In this document: positions 24,926 through 38,538 of the stretch, in pieces
Layout of the letters: each line of letters opens with the position of its first letter
How positions within the stretch are numbered: the first letter of the stretch is position 1
Assembly: GCF_000747095.1 (NCBI RefSeq)
Contig: NZ_JQGL01000013.1
Span: 42,761 to 86,650 of the forward strand
Direction of reading: 5' to 3'
From: Sulfuricurvum sp. MLSB
Lineage (GTDB): Bacteria > Campylobacterota > Campylobacteria > Campylobacterales > Sulfurimonadaceae
Length of the DNA stretch: 43,890 nt
Translations under genes and position numbers: made by a program
The notes under the pieces: generated by a model
What the model was told of the DNA's origin: nothing
The model's input: the letters and a program-made list of their open reading frames with translations, nothing else
Databases searched by the model: none

Positions 24926-26497
24926 TCAGGCATCGTACATCAGTGTATAGTATTCATGCGCCATGCGTCCCGTATCAAATGCCGTATTCACGTCACTCAT
25001 TGCATTGTTCATAATTTTGACCCATTCTTTGGGACGATCGTAATAGAGCGGCAGTATGGTTTTCTCCAGAATGTCCATGTTGATCCCGTCTTTGGCAAAT
25101 TCGGGATGCCATCCGTCATTGATCGAAAAATGGACAGAACCGTTCATGCTCGCCGTCATGCCGCTCGTACCGCTGGCTTCTCGGGTGATCCGCGGCGTAT
25201 TGAGCCACAGATCACTCCCTTGCTTGAGCATACGCGAAAGATCCAGCTCGTAGTGGGTCAAAACGGCGATCCGCGAGTATTGGTGCGACAGATCAACCAG
25301 TTCATTGAAAATGTTGATCGCATTAGGATCAAACGGATAAGGTTTGCCTGCCCAGATCACCTGCACCGGATAATCGTTTTGGGTGATGAGGCGAAGGAAG
25401 CGTTCCATATCGTATTTCAGAAGCCCCGGGCGCTTGTACTCGGTAAAACGGCGCGCCCAGACAATGGTAAAGATCTCGGGATCGAACATCTTTCCCGTCT
25501 GATCGGCGACTTCGGAAAAAAGAAGCTTTTTGAGGTGTTTTTTACGCGCGATGACCTCATAATTTTCATGTTCGTCCAACGCCCGGATCAGCGTTTTATC
25601 GGTCCAAAAACGGCGGTTTTGTGCATTGGTTATCGAGATGATCGGGCAGATTCCCTCATAGGGTTTCCACATCTCATTGGCTACCTCTGCATGAAGTGCC
25701 GAGACGGCGTTGGCGATTTTAGCGCTGCGCAGCGCCCCGAGGGTGAGACTGAACGTGCCATGGTGATGCTCCCCCATGATCTGAGTGACTTCCTCCATGC
25801 TTAACGTATTAAAAAAGCCCATCTCGTGCAGAAAATGGGTCGAATGTTCTTCGTTCCCCGCTTTTTCGGGAGTGTGTGTCGTAAACACAACATGAGGGCG
25901 AACCTGTTCCATATCGCGGTAGCGGCCGTAGAGTTCAAACACAAGCGGCAGTGCGTGTCCTTCATTCATATGGTAAATGTCGACCTCGTATTCCAGAGCT
26001 TCGAGCATCCGCGTACCGCCGATTCCCAATACGATTTCCTGCGCAACGCGGGTCTGTTCATTGGGGTCGTAAAGCTTGTGGGTAATCGTACGGGAGAGAA
26101 AATCGTTTTCGTCCGTATCGGTCGAGAGCAAAATAATCGGAGCCGTACCGAATACTTCGGGGCGGAGTAGATATCCTTTGATGACAACCGGTTTTGCATT
26201 GATTACAACCGTCACCTTCTGCGCAAGCTCTTCGAGAAAATAGTAATATTTTCGGGTAAATTCGACTCGGAGACTGCGGTCTTCATGGCGGCCTTGATCG
26301 TAATATCCAAAACTCCACAGGATACCGATACCGATCGTATTTTGTTTGAGATCATACACGCTGCGCATGTGCGATCCGGACAGAAATCCAAGCCCTCCGG
26401 CGTACACTTTCAACGCCTGATGAACCCCGAATTCCATCGAAAAATAGGCAACTTTTGTCTGGTAACGCTCATTGATCGAACATTCATGAAAGTGCAT
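24926..26497 (-). CDS. GT35 alpha-glucan phosphorylase homologue lacking the PLP lysine
   Basis: Protein of 523 residues of the glycogen phosphorylase family, short form without the extra N-terminal domain of the 830-residue AgpA type. Conserved blocks include AYFSMEFGVHQ (17-27), YAGGLGFLSG (32-41), HMNEGH (176-181), TTHTPEKAGNE (206-216), WARRFTEYKR (347-356, equivalent to the phosphate and PLP-phosphate contacts) and EASGTSGMTASMNG (440-453). In active phosphorylases the last block reads EASGTxNMK and the Lys forms the PLP Schiff base; here that position is Thr448 (codon 25154-25156). It is therefore unlikely to be a normal PLP-dependent phosphorylase. AAGGAG precedes the ATG. It is the last gene of the nine-gene glucan operon. 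Confidence 0.85.
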   Translation of the reverse strand: MHFHECSINERYQTKVAYFSMEFGVHQALKVYAGGLGFLSGSHMRSVYDLKQNTIGIGILWSFGYYDQGRHEDRSLRVEFTRKYYYFLEELAQKVTVVINAKPVVIKGYLLRPEVFGTAPIILLSTDTDENDFLSRTITHKLYDPNEQTRVAQEIVLGIGGTRMLEALEYEVDIYHMNEGHALPLVFELYGRYRDMEQVRPHVVFTTHTPEKAGNEEHSTHFLHEMGFFNTLSMEEVTQIMGEHHHGTFSLTLGALRSAKIANAVSALHAEVANEMWKPYEGICPIISITNAQNRRFWTDKTLIRALDEHENYEVIARKKHLKKLLFSEVADQTGKMFDPEIFTIVWARRFTEYKRPGLLKYDMERFLRLITQNDYPVQVIWAGKPYPFDPNAINIFNELVDLSHQYSRIAVLTHYELDLSRMLKQGSDLWLNTPRITREASGTSGMTASMNGSVHFSINDGWHPEFAKDGINMDILEKTILPLYYDRPKEWVKIMNNAMSDVNTAFDTGRMAHEYYTLMYDA

Positions 26498-26518: not shown

Positions 26519-27340
26519 TTATTCGAACAGCAATGCCGCGCCGATCAACGGAGCATTGTCCAAATCGGCATCTACGATCCGGCACTCTTTGTAGGCAGGC
26601 GGAAAGGTTTTGGCCGCAATCAACGGTTTGACTTTCTCTCTCAACATCGGATTGTCTTCCCACACTCCCCCGCCGATCACCAATACCGAGGGGTTATGAA
26701 GGGTAATCATCAAGGAAGCGGCATAGGCCAAAGCATCCGCCGCCGTCTCGGCGGTGCGACGCTCCTGAACGTTCCCCTCAAACCATCCGTCGACGCTTAA
26801 ATCGCTCAATCCGAACAGGTGACGCTGTTTTTCCAGTCCGCTCCCGGACGCAAAAAGTTCAAGGCAATCGGATTTGCCGCAGCCGCAGACCAGCGGAACC
26901 GACTGATAACCGACATGCCCTATTTCACCCGCCATATTTCCGCAGCCGCGGACAATCTTTCCTTCGCTCACACTGGCCGAGCCCAATCCCGTCCCGACGT
27001 ATAACACGCCGATCGTATCATATTTGAATCGCTGCCGATAAGCCAGTGCTGCACATTTGAGATCATTCTCAATCCGGACCTGCACTCCGGGAAACCGACA
27101 TTCAAGAAACGCTTGTATATTTTGGTGCTCGACTGCAATATTGGGAGCCGAGCGAATCTCACCGTTAAAAACCTGTCCGGCAAAGGCAATTCCGATACGT
27201 TTGATCCCCCGATGAGATTCGATCACATCGAGCATTTGATTTTCCCATCGTTGCGTCTTTAATCGATGTACTTCGCCTTCTTCACTACGGTACCGAAAGT
27301 GACTCCCACCGATGTCGAAGAACAATGAAGGCTCCATCAT
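26519..27340 (-). CDS. ROK family sugar kinase (glucokinase-like)
   Basis: Protein of 273 residues of the ROK family. An N-terminal phosphate-loop segment DIGGSHFRYR, the YVGTGLGSASV ATP-contact segment, the GEIGHVGY active-site block and the zinc motif CGCGKSDCLE are all visible. The likely role is ATP-dependent phosphorylation of glucose freed by the amylase-type enzymes, feeding glucose-6-phosphate to central metabolism. The start ATGATG offers 27340 or 27337; the first overlaps the TGA of the GH57 branching enzyme as ATGA. It sits between the branching enzyme and the phosphorylase homologue. Confidence 0.88.
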   Translation of the reverse strand: MMEPSLFFDIGGSHFRYRSEEGEVHRLKTQRWENQMLDVIESHRGIKRIGIAFAGQVFNGEIRSAPNIAVEHQNIQAFLECRFPGVQVRIENDLKCAALAYRQRFKYDTIGVLYVGTGLGSASVSEGKIVRGCGNMAGEIGHVGYQSVPLVCGCGKSDCLELFASGSGLEKQRHLFGLSDLSVDGWFEGNVQERRTAETAADALAYAASLMITLHNPSVLVIGGGVWEDNPMLREKVKPLIAAKTFPPAYKECRIVDADLDNAPLIGAALLFE

Positions 27341-28914
27341 CGGTATATCCGAAAATCGATCGACGGAAAAATGGAATTTTTGGATTCAAGCCATTCCACA
27401 AAACCCTCATCTACATTTTTGCCGTGCACCATGTCGTAGAGGCGATTGAAATTGGCGATATGCTCTTTCGTACGGCGGACACTGTACTCCGATGCGGTTC
27501 CCGTCGTCATCAAAAATGCCCAGTCCGAACTTTGGGCGAGCAGCAGCTCTCTTGCCATCTGATTGAGGATACGGATATTCCGGGATTCATATATATCGGC
27601 GAATCGGCGTGCCGATTCGCACATACGATCCGCCATAATGTGAAGATGACGGTATATCCAGTCGTTCCCTCCGTTGATCCAGACATCAAAATAGCCGCGA
27701 TCTCCCCATGATGAAGGGTTCGGATTAATCACCTGATTGACCGGATACAATTCGAGGTATTCAGGCGCGCTTATCGGGCGGATCAAACCGTGCGTATGGC
27801 ATTCTTTGAAAAAATAGTAGAGAAAATCGGGGCCTTCAAACCACCAATGGCCGAAAAGTTCGGCATCGTAGGGCGAAACGATCAAAGGGGGACGATCCAT
27901 ATAGTCGGAAAGGTAGTCTATTTGCCTTTCACGGTTGAAATGGAAATTGGATGCGTGCGACTGCGCCGCTTCTTGCGCCGCATGGGGATCATACCGGTGT
28001 TTGTCTCCCCTTTCGTTGGTTATTTTGTAGTATTTAAAACCCGTAAATCCGCGCGTGCCGGCCGGGTCAAGATAAGGGGCGACGTAATCGAAAGGAAGAT
28101 CGTATCCGATGTCCCGGTAAAAATCACGGTACCGCGAATCGCCGGGGTATCCTTCTTTCGAACTCCATACCTGTTTGGACGACTCGGGATCACGCCCGAA
28201 CGCCGCAACGCGGCAAGGAGTATAAACGGGAGCGAATACCCCATACCGCGGCGAAGGCTCTCCCAACGCGATGCCATGCGAATCCATAAAAAAATACTCG
28301 ATCCCATGCGCGGCCAGTAACGCATCCAGCCCGTCGTAGTAGGCACATTCGGGAAGCCATATCCCTCTTGGGGCTTTGCCGAAGGCTTCGGTATGTACCT
28401 TCACCGCCTGAGCGATCTGGGCTTCCACTGCTTTTTCGTTAACGCTCAGCAGCGGTAAAAAACCGTGTGTTGCACCGCACGTGATGATTTCAAGCATCCC
28501 GTTGCGCTCAAAATAGCGGTAACCGTTGAGAATGTTTTTTTCTAAAAAACCGTAGAAAAAATCGCTGATCGAGCGAAAACGTTCATGATAATAGAGCGCC
28601 GTTTCATAAAACGGGTCGCCTTCGAGCCGTTCGAGTTCTTTGGCAGCCAATTCAAGCTGGCGACTCAAACGCAAACAAAACTTTTCACTCAATACGGCAT
28701 CATTGAACATTTCGATCAAAGGCGGGGTAACCGATACGCTCAGACGAACGTAAACCCCCTCTTCTTCGAGCCTTTTGAGATTACGCAAAAGTGGAATATA
28801 GCACTCTTCGATTGCTTCAAAAAGCCATTGTTCTTCCAGATAAAAGTCGTATTCAGGGTGTTTGACGAACGGCAGATGCGAATGAAGCACCCCAAGCCAG
28901 TATCCCTGTTTCAT
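27337..28914 (-). CDS. GH57 1,4-alpha-glucan branching enzyme
   Basis: Protein of 525 residues, the size of GH57/DUF1957 branching enzymes such as those of Thermococcus and Thermus. Motif 1 is HSHLP (11-15). The nucleophile is Glu189 in GIWLPECAYYDG, and the acid/base is Asp350 in SPYDAELFGHWWFEGP. A helical C-terminal domain (about 420-525) carries the WAFLMTTGTASEYSVRR motif. It makes alpha-1,6 branches in glycogen. The start overlaps the DUF4912 stop by ATGA and the stop overlaps the ROK kinase start by ATGA, so translation is coupled on both sides. Confidence 0.93.
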   Translation of the reverse strand: MKQGYWLGVLHSHLPFVKHPEYDFYLEEQWLFEAIEECYIPLLRNLKRLEEEGVYVRLSVSVTPPLIEMFNDAVLSEKFCLRLSRQLELAAKELERLEGDPFYETALYYHERFRSISDFFYGFLEKNILNGYRYFERNGMLEIITCGATHGFLPLLSVNEKAVEAQIAQAVKVHTEAFGKAPRGIWLPECAYYDGLDALLAAHGIEYFFMDSHGIALGEPSPRYGVFAPVYTPCRVAAFGRDPESSKQVWSSKEGYPGDSRYRDFYRDIGYDLPFDYVAPYLDPAGTRGFTGFKYYKITNERGDKHRYDPHAAQEAAQSHASNFHFNRERQIDYLSDYMDRPPLIVSPYDAELFGHWWFEGPDFLYYFFKECHTHGLIRPISAPEYLELYPVNQVINPNPSSWGDRGYFDVWINGGNDWIYRHLHIMADRMCESARRFADIYESRNIRILNQMARELLLAQSSDWAFLMTTGTASEYSVRRTKEHIANFNRLYDMVHGKNVDEGFVEWLESKNSIFPSIDFRIYR

Positions 28915-29471
28915 GGTTTCGGTTGGCAGGATACGCTGCTCATCGATGTTGCTGATCCGGGTAATTCATCGCTGAGTGACGCGTGCAAAAGAATACCGCC
29001 GTTTTTGTCATACCAGATTTCTCCTTCGCCGTAGCGGAGTAAATCACTGCCGATTTTAAACTCTTTGGAGCGTAGCAACACGTGCACCACCCCGTTTTCA
29101 TCGGTCCACGATAATGTGGCATACAACTTCGCAAACGGCTCATCAACCGCTACGTAATAACTGCCGAGATCGCCGTGCACCTCTTTGCAGACTACGGTTC
29201 TGCCGCCTTGCATGATACACAGACTAAAAGAACTCTCATCCCCGATACCGTAACGAAGCCTTGTCTCGCGTGAGAGTTCCCAGTAAAAAAAGAGGCGATG
29301 CGGATTGACCATCAAAAGAGCGCACCGATCTTCATCGTAGCGATCCGGTATTATCGGAGCTGCCGGCTCTGCGACAGCTTTGACCCGTTTTGCAAAAAGC
29401 TCGGTTTCGTGCGTATGGCTGGAGAAATGATCGTCTCCCAAACTTCGCTGCGTTATGTCACCCGTTTTCAT
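28911..29471 (-). CDS. DUF4912 domain protein
   Basis: Protein of 186 residues. The DUF4912 pattern is visible in CALLMVNPHRLFFYWELS (about residues 50-67) with later beta strands YYVAVDEPFAKLYATLSW and GVVHVLLRSKEFKIG. The domain resembles an Ig-like or carbohydrate-binding fold and is often found beside or fused to GH57 branching enzymes; a glucan-binding or scaffold role is inference. AAAGGAGAC precedes the ATG. It sits between glgA and the branching enzyme, with ATGA to the latter. Confidence 0.8.
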   Translation of the reverse strand: MKTGDITQRSLGDDHFSSHTHETELFAKRVKAVAEPAAPIIPDRYDEDRCALLMVNPHRLFFYWELSRETRLRYGIGDESSFSLCIMQGGRTVVCKEVHGDLGSYYVAVDEPFAKLYATLSWTDENGVVHVLLRSKEFKIGSDLLRYGEGEIWYDKNGGILLHASLSDELPGSATSMSSVSCQPKP

Positions 29472-29481
29472 ACTGTCTCCT

Positions 29482-30900
29482 TTAAAAAGGCTTTAAAGCA
29501 CGGTAGAGCTTGAGATACTCCATCACCGGTCTTCGCCATGAGAAGTCTTTTTTCATATTAGATACTATCAAAGCTGTGTGCTTCTCGCGATCGGCATACA
29601 GGGCAAGCGCTTTGATGATCGCATGCATAAATGACACAATATCCGTCCTCTCCATCGTAATTCCCGTCCCGACCGAAGGGTTCGGATGGTGAGGAGAGGA
29701 ATCGGTAAAATCGATCACCGTGTCGCGCAGCCCTCCCGTTTTGCGCACAATGGGAATCGATCCGTAACGCATCGCGATCATCTGCGCCAGACCGCACGGC
29801 TCAAATTTCGACGGCATTAGAAAAAAATCGGACGCCGCATATATCCTGCGGCTCAAAGCTTCATCGTATCCGAGTATCACCCTGATGTTTTCTTTCCCCT
29901 CAAGAGGTTTGCACAGCGCTTCGTGATACGGATCGCCGCTTCCCAGTATCACAACGTTAAGGGGAGCGTCTGCGATCGAGCGAAGCATTTCGGCCAGCTC
30001 TTTGATCCCCTTTTGATCGGCAAGCCTTCCGACGTAGGCAAAAAGCGGATAATGGCTGTTATGCAGTCCGATATGTTCGCACAATGCGTGTTTTTCTTCC
30101 TGCTTCCGGCCGATCTGGCGGTTATCGAAAGGAAACGACAGCGCAGGATCGGACGCAGGATCGAATTCAGACGCATCAATCCCGTTGAGAATTCCCGAAA
30201 GTTTATCCTCGTGCGTGCGTAAAAAACGGTCCAGACCGCATCCGAAATCAGGATGCTTTATCTCTTGCGCATAGGTCGGGCTGACCGTCGTGACGGCGTC
30301 GGCATCGGCAATGCCCCCTTTGAGAAAATTGACTTTGTCATAAAATTCGAACCGATCGATCGTAAATCGGTCCCACCCAAGATTCAGCCTCTCAATCGCC
30401 TCTTTGGAAAAAATACCCTGAAATGCCAGATTATGGATCGTTAGAACAACCCGGCAGCGAAGACGGTACGGTTCTTTGGCCAGCGGCGCTGCCAGAGCGC
30501 TTTGCCAGTCATGCAGATGAAGAATGTCGATATTGATGTGATTGGCAGCCAGTTCGCACACCGCATGAGCAAATATCCCGAACCGCAGGTCGCTATCGGG
30601 GCAATCGTACAGACGTTCATGATCGCACAGCGCCGGATGATAGATGAAATAATTTTCGCATCCGTTATCAAAACATTTATATACTTTAATATTAAATTTT
30701 TCTCCTCCAAGATTCAGGGAAAAATCAATGCCGGCAGGACGGATATCAAAGCGTTCGCAGTCGATAGAACGGTACAAAGGCAAGATGGCGATTGTCTCTT
30801 CATGGCGTGACAGTTCTCGACAAAACCCCCCTACGGCATCGGCCAAACCGCCGCTTTTGACATAGGGGAACATCTCGCTGGCAACCATTGCAATCGTCAT
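29482..30900 (-). CDS. glgA: Glycogen synthase
   Basis: Protein of 472 residues of the GT5 family, the normal bacterial GlgA length, which transfers glucose from ADP-glucose (or UDP-glucose) to glycogen chains. The N-terminal KSGGLADAVG (15-24) nucleotide-sugar motif is intact, as are HLHDWQSALA, LTIHNLAFQG, GRLADQKG and the late MPSKFEPCGLAQMIAMRYG donor-binding block. The AAGGAG ribosome site lies within the end of galT, and ATG 30900 overlaps the galT TGA by ATGA. No glgC gene is in the window, so the donor must come from elsewhere or from the fused pyrophosphorylase at 35990. Confidence 0.95.
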   Translation of the reverse strand: MTIAMVASEMFPYVKSGGLADAVGGFCRELSRHEETIAILPLYRSIDCERFDIRPAGIDFSLNLGGEKFNIKVYKCFDNGCENYFIYHPALCDHERLYDCPDSDLRFGIFAHAVCELAANHINIDILHLHDWQSALAAPLAKEPYRLRCRVVLTIHNLAFQGIFSKEAIERLNLGWDRFTIDRFEFYDKVNFLKGGIADADAVTTVSPTYAQEIKHPDFGCGLDRFLRTHEDKLSGILNGIDASEFDPASDPALSFPFDNRQIGRKQEEKHALCEHIGLHNSHYPLFAYVGRLADQKGIKELAEMLRSIADAPLNVVILGSGDPYHEALCKPLEGKENIRVILGYDEALSRRIYAASDFFLMPSKFEPCGLAQMIAMRYGSIPIVRKTGGLRDTVIDFTDSSPHHPNPSVGTGITMERTDIVSFMHAIIKALALYADREKHTALIVSNMKKDFSWRRPVMEYLKLYRALKPF

Positions 30901-31889
30901 AACCGCTCCTTGTAAAGTTTTGAAGCCTCTTCGGGAGGCATCGGATTAATCGAAACCCCATCCTCGCTTTCCAGCGCGCTCACGCCGAAAAGACGGGGTA
31001 ACATCGAAATGTAAACCGTGTGGTAGGGATTATCATCTCGGATTGAATCTCGTATGACCATATTATACGCCACTTTTTCCCCCAAGACGAGCTTCATCAA
31101 ATGAACCGAACGGTGGACAAGCACCGCAAGGCTTTCCAGCTGCTCGGAAGAAGCGTATACCAGCGACGTTAAAACTGTAGTCGGCGCAATCCTCAACTCA
31201 AACGGATAGCGTGACGCAAAAGGGGTATAGAGACAAAAATCACCCTCTCTCGCGATCAGGCGCGTCTCGTCGTCAATCGTCTGTGCGACCTCATCGAGCA
31301 CTAAATGGGCATGATGCGCACGGTGGTATACCGCTTCCCTCTCATACATCGATGCGATGTGCGAAGGAATGAACGGGAGCGCGACGATTTGAGTATGCGG
31401 ATGGGACATAGTCTCTCCGGCGAGAATACCGACATTTTTGAATACGCTGACATGGGCGATGCGGGAATCTTGTGAAAGGTTCTCAATCCGTTTGGCGACC
31501 ATACGCAGATACGACACCGTCTCATCCGGACTCATCAATGCAAGATCCGAATCGTGTCCGGTCGTATCGATCAGTATCTCATGAGCACCAAATCCGCCCA
31601 TGCTGCGATGTATCCCTTCTTCGACAACGTCTGCGGAGGTTTCTATCGCAACGGCCCGGTAGCGGTTAGCGACAACCCGGTTGATCCAGCCGGATGTATT
31701 TATGGAACGTTCCGCATGAACGCACGACGCATCGATTTCCGCATCGCTCAACGCTTCGTTCCCTTCGCAGAAAGGACATTCGGCAGGAACCATACGAATA
31801 TCTTCAGCTTTTAGCGTCGGTTTTTTCAACCGATGCCGCGCAATGATCGTCCAGCGATCTTCCAGCGGGTCGTAGCGGTAAGTACTCAT
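30897..31889 (-). CDS. galT: Galactose-1-phosphate uridylyltransferase-like protein
   Basis: HIT-superfamily protein of 330 residues with the GalT architecture. Zinc ligands CPFC lie at residues 38-41. The catalytic motif reads HPHTQ (163-167), with His165 equivalent to the E. coli nucleophile; the usual Gly after the second His is Thr here. GalT exchanges UMP between UDP-glucose and hexose-1-phosphate. Its place inside a glycogen operon suggests interconversion of nucleotide-glucose and glucose-1-phosphate, and a related nucleotide-sugar phosphorylase activity is possible. ATG 31889 overlaps the upstream TGA by ATGA, with AGAGGT before it; the ten extra upstream residues in the open frame are not likely coding. 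Confidence 0.85.
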   Translation of the reverse strand: MSTYRYDPLEDRWTIIARHRLKKPTLKAEDIRMVPAECPFCEGNEALSDAEIDASCVHAERSINTSGWINRVVANRYRAVAIETSADVVEEGIHRSMGGFGAHEILIDTTGHDSDLALMSPDETVSYLRMVAKRIENLSQDSRIAHVSVFKNVGILAGETMSHPHTQIVALPFIPSHIASMYEREAVYHRAHHAHLVLDEVAQTIDDETRLIAREGDFCLYTPFASRYPFELRIAPTTVLTSLVYASSEQLESLAVLVHRSVHLMKLVLGEKVAYNMVIRDSIRDDNPYHTVYISMLPRLFGVSALESEDGVSINPMPPEEASKLYKERL

Positions 31890-33907
31890 TCCGCACCTCT
31901 TTCCCATCGGATTGCACATTCCAGCTTCAGTGCATCCTCATAGACAAACGCAAAGGCTATCATAATCCCTTGTGCCATCAGATCGATTCCCCCTTCGCTT
32001 TGCGATACGCTCATCACGGGATGTATCCAGAGAGTGTGCTTGCAGTTCCATCCGATCCGTATGGTTTCCTTCAGATACGGGTCGCAGATCGTCAGCTCAC
32101 TATCCGAGTCAAACGATGCTCCTGCCGTGTCGATCGATATTTCTTGCGAACGGATACGTATGTCGGAAAGATTGGCGAAATGGAGGTTAAGCTCGCATAC
32201 ATACATCAGTCCCTCTCTTGGCGGAGAGTCGATCTGCAAGGTGACCTCCAGCGCGTCCTTCTCTAAACGGTAGTTTTTGTCCAAGCGCACCGCCGTACCG
32301 TCCACATGTCCACGGCGTTCAAAACGTGCCTGATCGCTGCGTGCGGAAACGATCTCGAATACACCGTTGGCAAAATCGCCGTATTCGGTGTAGCCGCATC
32401 GATAAAACGCTGATAGATCGGTCTCCTGTGCGCAGAAGTGGTCGACAAACGAACCGCGCCGGTAAAAATCAAAATGCAACGCATCGGATGCTTCGGGAGT
32501 CAGAACATGATGCGCGTGATGAATCGTTTGTATCCCTTCGGCATGTTCTTGATTCTCGTGCATAGCACACAGCGCGCTATGATAAAATTCACGGCGACGC
32601 GTCAGCGTGTTTTGAAGGTTAAAGCCTCTCTCCATGCGATCAAGTTCGACAATCATCCCCCCGTTTCGGGTACTGAAAACCATATGCAGCGTCGGATCGC
32701 ACAGGCTCACTTCAGCATACCCGTCCAAATCAAAATCCTCGACCTCCCCCCTGAACCCTGTATGCCGGGATAAGATCGATTGCGCTTCGATAATGTATCG
32801 GTAGGCGTTGTCGCGCAGATTCGGCAGATATATCCCTCCGAACACCCCATGCCAGAATACATCGTTCGTCTGCGCCTTATAGACCCATTCCCTGTAGGTT
32901 TCGTCCCTTATCGCACCGATGTGTTTCGACAGCCGGAGCATCCGCTTATGGATGTGGTTCGCTTCGGGGTATTTGACCAGAAAGTTTTTCCAGATCCCTC
33001 CGCCTAATACACTCTGCGCCTCGTCCGGGTTCATATGACCGGACAGTATTTTTAACGCGCTGTCGGCCTGCAACGCGCGCTTGGTACCGTATGACCAATT
33101 TCCCATTTCATAATACGAGACGTTCGGCAAATAGGCCAGCCCAAGCGCCGTATTGCTGTCGATATAATCGCCGAAACGCATCGTGGTGATCCGATCGCGA
33201 TTGCACAGCTGTGTGACAAAAGCGTCCAGCCACCCCTGATCGTACACCCATTCATGCGTATGGGGCCATAACCCGAATTTTTCCCCGTCGTCAAAACAGA
33301 TTGCCGTGTCCATCGATTCGATTGCGTTGATCGCATCTTCATGCGGCGAAAAAGGGAGCCGGTAACGAAGGTCTTTGTGGATCGGAAAAATCTTGACCGT
33401 ATCGCCTCCGCATTCGCTGAGATAATACCCTTCGCACTCTCGGGGCGTAAATCCGACACGATGAAAGTGATAGTCGTCCACCAACGTGTACTCGATGCCG
33501 CATGCGGCCAGATCGGAGAGTATCTCGTCGCTCCATACCCGCTCGGTCAGCCAGATACCTCGCGGACGGCGGCCGAAAAGTTTTTCGATGAGGTCGGAGA
33601 GTTTTTCGATCTGTCCTCGGCGATCGGCTGAAGAGATGGAGGCTAGTATCGGCTCGTAATACCCTCCTCCGAGCCATTCAATCTGATTACGGGCGCTCAT
33701 CGTCTGCATCAATGCAAACAGATGCGGAACGTCAGCCGCTATTTTTTCCAGCAGCCATCCGCTGAAATGGACGCTGAAGCGAAATTTCTCGTGACGGCTC
33801 AAAACATCGAACACAGGAAAATAGGAACGCTCAATCGCCTCAAGCACGGCATGGTCGAAATTGTCAACCGGCTGGTGGCAGTGGATACCGAATAAAAACG
33901 TACTCAT
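31886..33907 (-). CDS. GH57 4-alpha-glucanotransferase
   Basis: Protein of 673 residues matching the Thermococcus litoralis-type GH57 4-alpha-glucanotransferase with DUF1925 and DUF1926 C-terminal beta domains. Motif GIHCHQP lies near the start. The nucleophile Glu122 is in RGIWLTERVW, and the acid/base Asp is in CFDDGEKFGLWP near residue 207. It moves maltosyl units between alpha-1,4 glucans and so remodels chains for the synthase and degrading enzymes. AAGGGG lies 5 bases before ATG 33907, better than ATG 33910. It directly precedes the GalT-like gene with ATGA. Confidence 0.92.
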   Translation of the reverse strand: MSTFLFGIHCHQPVDNFDHAVLEAIERSYFPVFDVLSRHEKFRFSVHFSGWLLEKIAADVPHLFALMQTMSARNQIEWLGGGYYEPILASISSADRRGQIEKLSDLIEKLFGRRPRGIWLTERVWSDEILSDLAACGIEYTLVDDYHFHRVGFTPRECEGYYLSECGGDTVKIFPIHKDLRYRLPFSPHEDAINAIESMDTAICFDDGEKFGLWPHTHEWVYDQGWLDAFVTQLCNRDRITTMRFGDYIDSNTALGLAYLPNVSYYEMGNWSYGTKRALQADSALKILSGHMNPDEAQSVLGGGIWKNFLVKYPEANHIHKRMLRLSKHIGAIRDETYREWVYKAQTNDVFWHGVFGGIYLPNLRDNAYRYIIEAQSILSRHTGFRGEVEDFDLDGYAEVSLCDPTLHMVFSTRNGGMIVELDRMERGFNLQNTLTRRREFYHSALCAMHENQEHAEGIQTIHHAHHVLTPEASDALHFDFYRRGSFVDHFCAQETDLSAFYRCGYTEYGDFANGVFEIVSARSDQARFERRGHVDGTAVRLDKNYRLEKDALEVTLQIDSPPREGLMYVCELNLHFANLSDIRIRSQEISIDTAGASFDSDSELTICDPYLKETIRIGWNCKHTLWIHPVMSVSQSEGGIDLMAQGIMIAFAFVYEDALKLECAIRWERGAE

Positions 33908-33916
33908 CATTTCCCC

Positions 33917-35980
33917 TTAAATATACCAGTCGTACGGACGGTCGATATAGCGTGCCAAAACCGCGGCATGCTCGTTCGGAAATCGCGATAGAATCTCTTC
34001 GCCCGCAATCACTTCGATCTGAAGCGAAAAGGTTTCGTCCGCTTTGAGCCATTTAAGCGGTATGCGCAGCTGCGCCGTTTTGGAGACGATCCCTTCGGGG
34101 GTTTCGGAACGCCGATCCAGTTTCTTTTCCCGCAGCAGAGCAACTTCCAGCGGCTGGCACTGTGCGCTCAGCAGTTTCAGGCGTATGTCCCGCCCGCTAA
34201 GTTCGTGCCATCTCCCCTCCAGCGAAAGGTAAAAATACTCTCGATCGAACCCGTAGCGCATCGCACGTATGATCCCCTTTTCACTCGTATCCATCACATC
34301 GGTAAAGCTAGGTTCGTGCACGATACCAGAACCGTACCACTCAAAAAACGGTTCCTCTTCCGCACTCAGTGCGGGGGATATCCATTCAGTCGGGATCAGC
34401 GACGTCTGAAGCGTTTCAGATCGGTTCGGCCTCAGCAGATAGACCGGAACGCTCTGCGACATATGTCTGTAGATACGGATCAAACGCTGGCGAAAAAGCA
34501 TGTCGAACAAATCGGCGTATTCGCTTTGATGATCGGTCCCGTACCACCAAAACCAGTCGCTCCCCTCGGCGATGAGCAGTTCTCTTTGTATCGTCTCACG
34601 CAGCGGGAGCGTCAGAGCATCTGCCTGACGTTGATAGGCCAAATGCGCCTGACAGAGCATCTCCCATGCACGGTTTTTATCCCGCTGCCCGATCCATGTC
34701 GAAAAATCACGGTAAATCCAGCTCCCCGGATGGATGCGCCCCAGAATCGGATAACGGCGTTCGTCTGCGGCAAGTCCGTCCAAATGCACCGTCTCGCACC
34801 ACGTGCATGCACTCAGCCGTTCATACAACGCGTTGAAAAAGTGAATCGCGTTGTCAGGATAAGATTCCCAGGCATTTTCACCGTCGAGAATGACGGAAAC
34901 GACGGCGTTATCGTAGGATTCATGGACATGATGCAAATCGGCCATAAAATCGTCTGCCGCCGTATTTGCCTCGAACGCGGCGTAATGAAAACCGATTTTG
35001 TCGCTGAGCCGTTTGTCCCGAAACACGACCATAATCCCGTTTTCGTGCTTAAACCGATATGGGGTATAGAGGGTTGATCTCTCATAATTGTTCAGCGTCG
35101 CAAACAGAATTTCTTCATCGGTAGCGGCAAAACGAAATCCGTAACGTTCGTATGCCTGTAACGTTGTTTCGTTGACTGACCCTTCCGAGGGCCAGATTCC
35201 CTGCGGATCACGATCAAAACATTCGTTAAAACATTTCATCCCTTCTTCCAGATGGCGGTAAGCATCCTCTTCGAACATGCAGGTCACATCCGGCATCTTG
35301 GTATCCGGACGGCTGTGCAGCGCATTTTTCATGTCCATCAGCAGCGGCATGATCGGATGGTACATCGGATTCATGGCTAAAGCGATGCGTCCGCTTTCGA
35401 TCATTGAACGGTATTCGGGCATAATCTGCCGGATAAAATCAGCCAGCGTATCCAGCAAGGCGTTCTTCTGCACTTCATCAAAACCTTCCCCTTGCTCAAG
35501 TATCTGCGCGATCAGAAGTTTCTCGCTTCTCAAGGCATTGCCGCACCACGAAAGCAAAAACAGCACTTCGATTTCACACATTTCGCCATCATCCAGCGAC
35601 CGGGTCTGCGATGCTTCCAATAGTTGCGCATAGCGCGGCAAAGGCACTACCTGATGTTCGTAATGGACATTGCGGACAAACCGTATTACCCATTCTCTTT
35701 CGCTCTCGTCGAGCATGGAACACGGTTGACGAAAAAGTTTCAGCAAACGGTCTTCAACGTCTTTGTCTTCGTACAGCCGAAGCTGTTCGAGCAATGAGGG
35801 GGATAGGTTGAACGTCGCTTTGAGCTGAGGAAACCGCTTTAAATGCCACAGCATTTCGTAATAATCTTTCAATGCGTGCAGAAACACCCACGGCATCTCG
35901 ATCACACCGCTCTCGTCGTCCCGGTAATAGGGCTGATGCATGTGCCAGAAAAAAGCAATCTTGAGCGGCAGCCGTTTCAT
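33917..35980 (-). CDS. GH57 alpha-amylase / amylopullulanase-type enzyme
   Basis: Protein of 687 residues of GH57. Motif FWHMHQPYY lies at residues 11-19. The nucleophile is Glu266 in GIWPSEGSVN, and the acid/base is Asp366 in VILDGENAWE, the pattern of GH57 amylases and amylopullulanases (the branching and 4-GTase types have different motifs). There is no signal peptide, so it acts in the cytoplasm, presumably on stored glucan. A C-terminal beta-rich domain (about 540-687) follows. GGGGGAG precedes the ATG, 10 bases after the upstream stop. Confidence 0.9.
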   Translation of the reverse strand: MKRLPLKIAFFWHMHQPYYRDDESGVIEMPWVFLHALKDYYEMLWHLKRFPQLKATFNLSPSLLEQLRLYEDKDVEDRLLKLFRQPCSMLDESEREWVIRFVRNVHYEHQVVPLPRYAQLLEASQTRSLDDGEMCEIEVLFLLSWCGNALRSEKLLIAQILEQGEGFDEVQKNALLDTLADFIRQIMPEYRSMIESGRIALAMNPMYHPIMPLLMDMKNALHSRPDTKMPDVTCMFEEDAYRHLEEGMKCFNECFDRDPQGIWPSEGSVNETTLQAYERYGFRFAATDEEILFATLNNYERSTLYTPYRFKHENGIMVVFRDKRLSDKIGFHYAAFEANTAADDFMADLHHVHESYDNAVVSVILDGENAWESYPDNAIHFFNALYERLSACTWCETVHLDGLAADERRYPILGRIHPGSWIYRDFSTWIGQRDKNRAWEMLCQAHLAYQRQADALTLPLRETIQRELLIAEGSDWFWWYGTDHQSEYADLFDMLFRQRLIRIYRHMSQSVPVYLLRPNRSETLQTSLIPTEWISPALSAEEEPFFEWYGSGIVHEPSFTDVMDTSEKGIIRAMRYGFDREYFYLSLEGRWHELSGRDIRLKLLSAQCQPLEVALLREKKLDRRSETPEGIVSKTAQLRIPLKWLKADETFSLQIEVIAGEEILSRFPNEHAAVLARYIDRPYDWYI

Positions 35981-35989
35981 TCGCTCCCC

Positions 35990-38476
35990 CTAAAGCTTCA
36001 AAAGGGCGGAGTATTCTTGCGCCAGGGCTTCGCTCTCTTTGAGGCTGCTCGATTGAATGTAGAGGTGAAGTTTCTCGTCATGCGGATCGGGAAGCATCAG
36101 CACCCATCGTTTTTGCCCCAGCTCAACCCGTATCCCTTCGATGTGCGACATCCGTTTTCCTTTGGCGTGTTCGCCGAAACGGCGCATCATTTTTCCCTTT
36201 GCCGATTCCGGGCAGGCAATCGTACAGCGATAATAATGGCGGCTCGGATCAATACGCTTGCGAACGGACGGCAGCTTGACGTGCTGCTTGGCCATCATTT
36301 CCAGAATTTTCACTCCGGCGAATATCGCGTCGCTATGGAAGCCGAATGCGGTAAATATGTACTGATCGTCTACGTCGGCGATTAAATCGAAATCTTTCAT
36401 CGTCGAAGCCTTCAGCCCCGTCATCTTGCCGTGAACGATTTCAAGATTTTCAAACATTCCGTCCATCCAATCGGGCGCCCATGTCGGTAGATAAACGCGG
36501 CGTATCTCATCGCTGCCGTCCGCCAATGCCAAAATACACAGCAGCGCTTCGTAATCGGGAAGCATCCCTCCCTCTACGGTAAAAATTTTCAGCCGATGCC
36601 CGTTGGGATACACCATGAATCCCGCGTCCAGTTTCAACGTCTCGACGATCTCAGCCAAAGCCTGCTTCGCACGATCGCGTTCGATATAGAGGCGAGAGAG
36701 TTTTTTGTCATCCCAATACGCGTTCAGAATCATATTGTCGATTTCAAGCGCATTGATTACCTGCGGATAAATTTCGCTCGTTACCCCGAACATCAAATCG
36801 ACGGCTACGTTCATTTTGCACCGCTTAAAGCCGTTTTTGTCAATCAGCGAAAACATTCGATCCAAATAATCCTTGTTCAGGTTGGGTTTGTCAATAATCT
36901 CTCCGATTTCTGAGACGTCGACGCGCCGAAAATTTTCCCGGAAAAAAAGCCGCTCGATGCTCTGTGCCATTCCGTTATTCAGCGGCAGCGAATCGGCCGT
37001 ATAAAAACTGATTTCCGTTGTTGAGGGGTCATCCAGAGATTGCCGAAAATGTACTCCTGCTCCGATCTGCTCATGTACATAAAGACCGTGGCGCATGACA
37101 TTCAGCGGCATGAACTGCAAATCGACGACGTTCACACCGGTACCGAGTAGTCCTCCCAAAAATGCCCGTTTGAGCATCCGCGATCCCTTGTGGTAATCGC
37201 GCGACGTATAGACCGTGCACCCTACCGGCAATACCGAACCGAACGCTTCGGCCAGTTTTGTGGCGATTTCGCACGACAGCTCGACGTTGCTTCGCCCGAC
37301 AACATTGTTATTGCTGAACAGCGAAGCTTTGTATTTGTCCATCCAAATCACGTTGGAACTGACGATCGCTCCCTCTTCGATCGTTTTTCCGGGCCATACC
37401 ATCACGTCTTTTTCGAATGCCGCATTGTTGCCTATCCGACAATCCTGAGCGATGATGGCCCCCTGGACGATGTGAACTTTTTCTCCTACGCTGCAGCCGT
37501 CGGCAATGACCGCATTGACCAGACTGCACCGTTCCTTGATGGCTACGTTTTTCCAAATGACCGATTCTTCAATCCGGCACCGTTCGCCGATCTTGCTCCC
37601 TGCACCGATTGCGCAGTTGTAAAGTTCGCATCCTTTGTCGACGGTGACGTTGTCCCCCAAGACGACGATCCCTTTGATTTTCGTCTCTTTAGGCAGCTTG
37701 ACCCCTTGCCCCAGATAAACGGTCCCTCTTCCGATCTCGACCTTCTCGCCGATATAGTCAAACCGCGCTTTCCCTTCGAAAATTTCCTGATGGACGCTGC
37801 GGTAACTCTCCGGGTTGCCGACGTCACGCCAATACCCTTCCATAAGGCATCCCCACAGCGTCACTCCCTGAGCCATCAGCGAGGGGAAAAGGTCTTTAGA
37901 AAAATCGTAATTGGTCTGGGAAGGGATGGCATCGAAGATTTCGTTGTCAAGAACGTAAATGCCCGTGTTGATTTGATCGCTGAACACTTCTCCCCAGCTC
38001 GGTTTTTCCAAAAAGCGTTCGATCTTGCCTTCATCGTCGGCGATCACAACCCCGAAGGGCAAAGGGTTTTCTACTGAGGTAAGCGTGATGGTGAGTTTGG
38101 AGTGTTTGCTGCGGTGAAATGCGATGATTTTTTCAAGATCGAAATCACACACCAAATCGCCGCTGATCACCAGTACGTCATCGGCGCCGACATACGCTTC
38201 GGCGGATTTGAGTGCTCCCGCCGTGCCGTAATCGTCATCGGGAAGGACATAGGTTATGGAGACGCCGAAACGGCTCCCGTCTCCGAAATATCCCTGAATG
38301 ACTTCGGGCATGAAGTATAAAAGGATAATGATTTCATCAATACCCGATGCTTTAAGCCGCTCAACGGTAATCTCCATCATCGGACGGTTGATAACCGGAA
38401 GCATCGGCTTGGGCAGAGAATGGGTCAAGGGCTGGATTCGGGTTCCGAATCCTCCCGCCATGATAATACCTTTCAC
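35990..38476 (-). CDS. NDP-sugar pyrophosphorylase / left-handed beta-helix / degenerate phosphomannomutase fusion
   Basis: Protein of 828 residues, first gene of the glucan operon. An N-terminal nucleotidyltransferase domain (1-235) has MAGGFGTRIQPLTHSLPKPMLP and VISGDLVCDFD. A hexapeptide beta-helix follows at about 240-380 (IKGIVVLGDNVTVDKGC). A phosphohexomutase-like domain occupies 390-828, but the catalytic TASHNP serine motif is replaced by HFRQSLDDPST, and the metal motif DGDxDR reads ADVDDQ, so mutase activity is doubtful. Annotation as mannose-1-phosphate guanylyltransferase is customary; in this setting it may supply the glycogen donor. GTG 38476 has AAGGAAGG upstream, and the 16 codons above it are unlikely to be coding. 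Confidence 0.88.
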   Translation of the reverse strand: MKGIIMAGGFGTRIQPLTHSLPKPMLPVINRPMMEITVERLKASGIDEIIILLYFMPEVIQGYFGDGSRFGVSITYVLPDDDYGTAGALKSAEAYVGADDVLVISGDLVCDFDLEKIIAFHRSKHSKLTITLTSVENPLPFGVVIADDEGKIERFLEKPSWGEVFSDQINTGIYVLDNEIFDAIPSQTNYDFSKDLFPSLMAQGVTLWGCLMEGYWRDVGNPESYRSVHQEIFEGKARFDYIGEKVEIGRGTVYLGQGVKLPKETKIKGIVVLGDNVTVDKGCELYNCAIGAGSKIGERCRIEESVIWKNVAIKERCSLVNAVIADGCSVGEKVHIVQGAIIAQDCRIGNNAAFEKDVMVWPGKTIEEGAIVSSNVIWMDKYKASLFSNNNVVGRSNVELSCEIATKLAEAFGSVLPVGCTVYTSRDYHKGSRMLKRAFLGGLLGTGVNVVDLQFMPLNVMRHGLYVHEQIGAGVHFRQSLDDPSTTEISFYTADSLPLNNGMAQSIERLFFRENFRRVDVSEIGEIIDKPNLNKDYLDRMFSLIDKNGFKRCKMNVAVDLMFGVTSEIYPQVINALEIDNMILNAYWDDKKLSRLYIERDRAKQALAEIVETLKLDAGFMVYPNGHRLKIFTVEGGMLPDYEALLCILALADGSDEIRRVYLPTWAPDWMDGMFENLEIVHGKMTGLKASTMKDFDLIADVDDQYIFTAFGFHSDAIFAGVKILEMMAKQHVKLPSVRKRIDPSRHYYRCTIACPESAKGKMMRRFGEHAKGKRMSHIEGIRVELGQKRWVLMLPDPHDEKLHLYIQSSSLKESEALAQEYSALLKL

Positions 38477-38538
38477 ACGTTCACCTTCCTTGCAGTTTTT
38501 GATGATCAAAACAACACGAACCAACGACCGATTGTAAT

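Follow-up and report, generated by a model that had tools for sequence, protein, structure and literature searches.

The gene located at positions 24926 to 26497 of the window, i.e., the 43,890-nucleotide stretch of the Sulfuricurvum sp. MLSB genome that was analyzed, encodes a GT35 homologue belonging to an old clade of compact proteins in which the lysine that carries PLP is replaced by another residue in every member. The conservation of this clade suggests a genuine GT35 branch that has been overlooked, and not a broken gene. Its members may be phosphorylase-type glucosyl transferases devoid of covalently bound PLP and active in glycogen turnover, a reading to which we assign a probability of about 45%. 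The gene and its two diagnostic blocks are as follows.

24926..26497, minus strand: lysine-less GT35 homologue of 523 residues, member of TIGR02094 (396.9 bits versus a cut-off of 191.7; PF00343, 43.6 bits)
25154..25156, minus strand: codon ACG for Thr448, at the PLP-lysine position (Thr, Ser, or Ala in all clade members)
25430..25453, minus strand: RRFTEYKR block, residues 349 to 356, mapped contacts with phosphate and the PLP phosphate (no change at R349, R350, Y354, or K355 in any of the 155 rows)

The window protein contains EASGTSGMT in the block that aligned to EASGTSGMK, and Thr448 faced the PLP lysine of Lys-bearing GT35 members in pairwise, multiple, and profile alignments. The alignment of Thr448 with the PLP-lysine position is secure on this basis. 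The codon and the three types of alignment confirmed the original prediction, which had placed a threonine at the Schiff-base lysine and had described RRFTEYKR and the other GT35 blocks as intact; THTP, NEGH, and GGLG are also present. The protein exceeds the curated cut-off of TIGR02094 and is matched by PF00343 in Pfam, its score for the classical GlgP/MalP model (TIGR02093) being well below the cut-off (41.6 versus 552.9 bits). No other GT35 protein was found in this genome, which is 99% complete. By sequence and fold, the window protein is a GT35/TIGR02094 homologue and not a demonstrated glycogen phosphorylase, because a defining feature, the PLP lysine, was looked for and is missing.

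Relatives were taken from the genus and phylum of the window, from genome contigs and plasmids, and from 198 Bacteroidota genomes. Among the clade members with a readable motif, which are those counted here, position 448 was occupied by Thr in 112, Ser in 40, and Ala in 3 of the 155 alignment rows, and the Schiff-base lysine of the GT35 motif (EASGTxxMK) was absent from all of them. Two rows being duplicates, this corresponds to 153 distinct proteins, the window protein included (110 Thr, 40 Ser, 3 Ala, and no Lys), from Campylobacterota, Bacteroidota, and Verrucomicrobiota. The gene was detected in 24 of the 198 sampled Bacteroidota genomes (~12%; matches of >800 bits). Since none of the 153 distinct members carries Lys, codon 448 can be attributed neither to chance nor to a mistake in sequencing or assembly. 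The side chain at this position is unlikely to be catalytic, since Ala is tolerated there. Conservation of the threonine among relatives had been proposed as a check for a new GT35 subclass; Thr, Ser, or Ala proved universal in the clade, no close relative had Lys, and the proposal of a subclass lacking the PLP lysine stands. Pairwise dN/dS values of 0.03 to 0.065 showed strong purifying selection on the family.

The gene had also been described as not decaying. This holds for the family, for which decay is rejected by the dN/dS values, and is not certain for the window copy, which displays the following feature.

25078..25079, minus strand: in-frame deletion of 22 residues in comparison to full-length relatives, with its junction between Asn473 and Met474 (model pLDDT of <50 at residues 460 to 472)

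The deletion was absent from every relative read and removes a strand kept by the full-length relatives. The model of the window copy was of lower confidence (pLDDT of 87.4). Because 22 residues kept by relatives are missing, the window copy may be a damaged or misassembled member of a sound family, both a real loss and an assembly error being possible; decay is thus conceivable for this copy.

In phylogenetic trees, the lysine-less rows formed a single clade (support of 100), the sister of which was a Lys-bearing protein, L142 (support of 100/99). This 541-residue GT35 protein of a Bacteroidota genome (L142:829-2448, minus strand) has K30 and the GNExH motif in common with the lysine-less clade, yet still contains the lysine, and is a possible intermediate. 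Classical phosphorylases branched outside, and the grouping of all Lys-bearing TIGR02094 rows into one clade was rejected (AU test, P = 0.039, with the trait column left out). The stem of the lysine-less clade is long, with 1.36 changes per column. A single loss of the lysine on this stem, inside the Lys-bearing TIGR02094 group, is the most likely scenario and is moderately supported. Primitive absence of the lysine, in a branch older than the use of PLP, is disfavored because a Lys-bearing protein is sister to the clade and the classical enzymes lie outside, the branches being long and the AU P value only 0.039.

We mapped onto the clade the residues that we take to contact the phosphate, the PLP phosphate, the PLP ring, and the sugar in the rabbit and E. 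coli enzymes. Besides position 448, this mapping comprised 20 contacts, 18 of which were identical in 155/155 rows (G34, G35, N178, E179, H181, H208, N291, W298, R349, R350, Y354, K355, S421, E440, S442, G443, T444, and S445), the other two (Y416 and N433) being kept in 154/155 rows. At R349 and the NEGH residues, the clade agrees with the TIGR02094 group and not with the classical enzymes, and S421 is a clade-specific change, the residue being Ala in nearly all Lys-bearing members. Together with S421, residues H43, Q293, P386, E417, and K425 are invariant in the clade and specific to it, and they could reflect a changed substrate or reaction.

The AlphaFold model of a full-length homologue from Sulfurimonas (L036) had a mean pLDDT of 92.6, with a mean of 68 for the EASGTSG block. 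The best structural match was the Segatella copri glycogen phosphorylase (9l6i; Z score of 35.6, 531 residues, root mean square deviation of 2.0), followed by MalP (Z score of 32.6) and ADP-bound E. coli GlgA (2qzs; Z score of 31.7 over 439 residues). A fold predicted to be shared with glycogen phosphorylase proves no function. All 44 members of set A3 matched the TIGR02094 model, and the enzymes of that group, such as 9l6i, display the same fold and whole-length homology to the clade (profile E value of 1e-127, 38% identity), with common phosphate, glucose, and PLP-phosphate residues on the mapping that we assume. Unlike these enzymes, the clade lacks the PLP lysine, has Ser for Ala at position 421 beside a PLP-contact position, possesses its own invariant residues, contains no DUF3417 domain above the Pfam cut-off, and comprises proteins of ~540 residues versus ~700 to 870 for most members of the group. 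The EASGT, [RK]R..EYKR, THT, and GGLG blocks and the fold are also shared with classical phosphorylases (TIGR02093, GlgP/MalP), from which the lysine-less proteins differ by the absence of the PLP lysine, a far smaller size, ~20% identity, and the low TIGR02093 score.

The gene is the last of a same-strand run of glycogen genes extending from position 38524 to position 24926, which also contains the following genes.

26519..27340, minus strand: ROK-family sugar kinase (glucokinase-like; PF00480), with an in-frame fusion to the GT35 homologue seen in two other genomes
27337..28914, minus strand: GH57 1,4-alpha-glucan branching enzyme
28911..29471, minus strand: DUF4912 protein
29482..30900, minus strand: GlgA, GT5 glycogen synthase (TIGR02095, 485 bits versus a cut-off of 328)
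30897..31919, minus strand: GalT-like hexose-1-phosphate uridylyltransferase family protein (below the curated equivalog cut-offs)
31886..33910, minus strand: GH57 alpha-amylase/4-alpha-glucanotransferase
33917..35980, minus strand: GH57 protein
35990..38524, minus strand: nucleotidyltransferase-phosphohexomutase fusion

The initial description of the gene as the last of a complete glycogen operon was broadly right, and the function that this position had been taken to imply is supported by the purifying selection, the intact active site, and a nearly complete co-occurrence with GlgA in Campylobacterota. In the 397 genomes from this phylum, counted irrespective of kinship, the lysine-less gene was present in 69 and GlgA (above the cut-off) in 74, with 68 genomes containing both and 322 neither. 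Matches to the lysine-less gene were spread over 24 of the 68 Campylobacterota genera, and the neighboring genes encoded GlgA, GH57 proteins, the GH13 branching enzyme, phosphoglucomutase, phosphoglucose isomerase, or phosphoglycerate kinase. No Lys-bearing TIGR02094 protein was detected, in the searches made, in 58 of the 69 genomes with the gene. In the Bacteroidota and Verrucomicrobiota loci that were checked, the gene was not adjacent to glycogen genes, and no conserved operon was found outside Campylobacterota. Classical phosphorylases were detected in G438 and G456, two of 30 genomes of these phyla that contain the gene; G438 also carries L142, the one Lys-bearing TIGR02094 protein detected in this set. 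One Campylobacterota genome (G104) carries a TIGR02094 gene interrupted by several stop codons (L184, L192, L200, and L201) and no GlgA gene above the cut-off.

To our knowledge, PLP is regarded as essential in GT35, all characterized members of which are PLP phosphorylases. The lysine of these enzymes only tethers PLP. It is dispensable in principle, because the reduced enzyme and the apoenzyme supplied with pyridoxal plus phosphite stay active. Trehalose phosphorylase of the GT4 family is not known to need PLP. The phosphorylase-type reading is favored because of this dispensability and because the mechanism considered here has been proposed for the GT4 enzyme. Phosphorolysis would most likely proceed by front-side (SNi-like) retention: R350 and K355 would hold the substrate phosphate, which would itself donate the proton to the glycosidic oxygen, as has been suggested for the GT4 enzyme. 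A second phosphate, or PLP in a loosely bound form, would occupy the site left empty by the PLP phosphate (R349, G35, and T444). The front-side mechanism with Pi as the proton donor has been described for GT4 and GT35 (PMC8950772). Like the enzyme that we envision, GT4 trehalose phosphorylase is, according to the literature, a retaining glycosyltransferase phosphorylase; it belongs to another family and acts on another substrate. Against a phosphorylase free of the PLP lysine, PLP has been described as a required and covalently attached cofactor in characterized GT35 enzymes (PMC11046441).

The main rival reading is that the protein is an NDP-glucose-dependent glucosyltransferase, or catalyzes the reverse reaction (formation of NDP-glucose from glucan and NDP), with the nucleotide in the vacated PLP pocket as in the GT5 enzyme GlgA. 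This would be a return to the state presumed to have preceded GT35, in line with the proposal that PLP replaced a nucleotide in a proto-GT35 enzyme (PMC11046441). GlgA and the lysine-less proteins share the GT-B fold, as seen in the match of the model to the ADP-bound enzyme, the absence of Lys at the position of residue 448, and a GY...S motif, the G-Y-E...S residues at positions 415 to 421 resembling GYxExxS of GlgA. The GlgA model also scored higher for lysine-less than for Lys-bearing GT35 proteins (medians of 20.8 and 1.7 bits, respectively), and TIGR02095 was matched at an E value of ≤1e-5 by 30 of 44 lysine-less members versus 4 of 25 Lys-bearing members. However, GlgA agreed with the lysine-less state at four clade-diagnostic positions and with the Lys-bearing state at five. 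Thus, the likeness is not systematic, contrary to what the profile scores would suggest. In addition, the score of the Sulfurimonas protein was 28.5 bits for a TIGR02095 cut-off of 328.45, the lysine of the GlgA KTGGL motif is missing at the aligned place, GT35 structures matched over more residues than GlgA, and the same Campylobacterota genomes already have GlgA. We consider a nucleotide-dependent reaction unlikely. For the broader view that a widespread GT35 branch does entirely without PLP, its former cofactor pocket housing phosphate or a nucleotide for the cleavage or synthesis of alpha-glucans, and thereby reverses the presumed origin step of GT35, we see the odds as even.

Loss of a residue regarded as essential, together with a long stem and clade-specific invariant residues, would also be expected of a catalytically dead protein that binds glucan or regulates glycogen metabolism. 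Catalytic residues usually drift in dead enzymes, whereas nearly all of the mapped catalytic and sugar-contact residues are invariant here across three phyla, and no Lys-bearing GT35 protein was found in most of the Campylobacterota genomes with the gene. A dead protein is, on these grounds, rather doubtful. A hydrolase, in which water would replace phosphate for lack of PLP and the free glucose released would be phosphorylated by the adjacent ROK kinase, could account for the position of the kinase gene, which lies immediately upstream in several relatives as it does in the window, and for the in-frame fusion of the two genes in two Campylobacterota metagenome-assembled genomes (L023:1225-3786, minus strand, and L044:5613-8204, plus strand). 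However, the phosphate-site residues R350 and K355, for which a hydrolase would have no need, are invariant, and in Tsukamurella a ROK gene comes after a Lys-bearing homologue, so that this neighbor is not specific; hydrolysis appears quite improbable.

The use of another lysine for Schiff-base binding of PLP, also part of the original prediction, was weakened by the distribution of the candidates and is the least probable reading. Lys was present in at least 98% of the clade at positions 30, 319, 323, 355, 385, and 425. K355 and K385 are also present in Lys-bearing relatives, and K319 is shared with GlgA and with the majority of classical phosphorylases; K425 alone combines invariance with clear specificity to the clade. 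By motif counting, position 425 corresponds to about rabbit residue 657, which is not known to be a PLP contact. K30 precedes the GG loop by a few residues; Lys occupies this position in 152/155 rows and in the Lys-bearing sister L142, but its replacement by Ala, Asn, or Arg in three members weakens a hand-over to this position.

In the open-access full-text papers searched, we found no account of a GT35 branch lacking the lysine. In NCBI models, the proteins go under the name "alpha-glucan family phosphorylase", with glgP as the gene name in public records. These names may be wrong for the genes of many Campylobacterota, Bacteroidota, and Verrucomicrobiota, Akkermansia among them, which makes the glycogen breakdown route deduced for these bacteria uncertain. 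A conserved branch with an intact site minus the lysine provides a natural test of the contribution of PLP and of the idea, already in print, that a nucleotide was replaced by PLP in a proto-GT35.

Gut Akkermansia genomes (L082, L083, L089, L090, and L095) carry the gene with Ser at the lysine position. Runella rosea and Pontibacter actiniarum have plasmid-borne lysine-less genes annotated glgP (L202 and L203). Short plasmid GT35 genes (L203 to L206 and L208) adjoin genes for DUF1622 proteins, type II GAPDH, or phosphoketolase; the plasmid protein is lysine-less in Pontibacter (L203) and Lys-bearing in Methylophaga, Leptolyngbya, Pseudorhizobium, and Criblamydia. In Lys-bearing Bacteroidota members (L212, L251, and L253 to L255), the motif is EASGTSGEK or EASGTSGQK, Glu or Gln replacing the Met that precedes the lysine.
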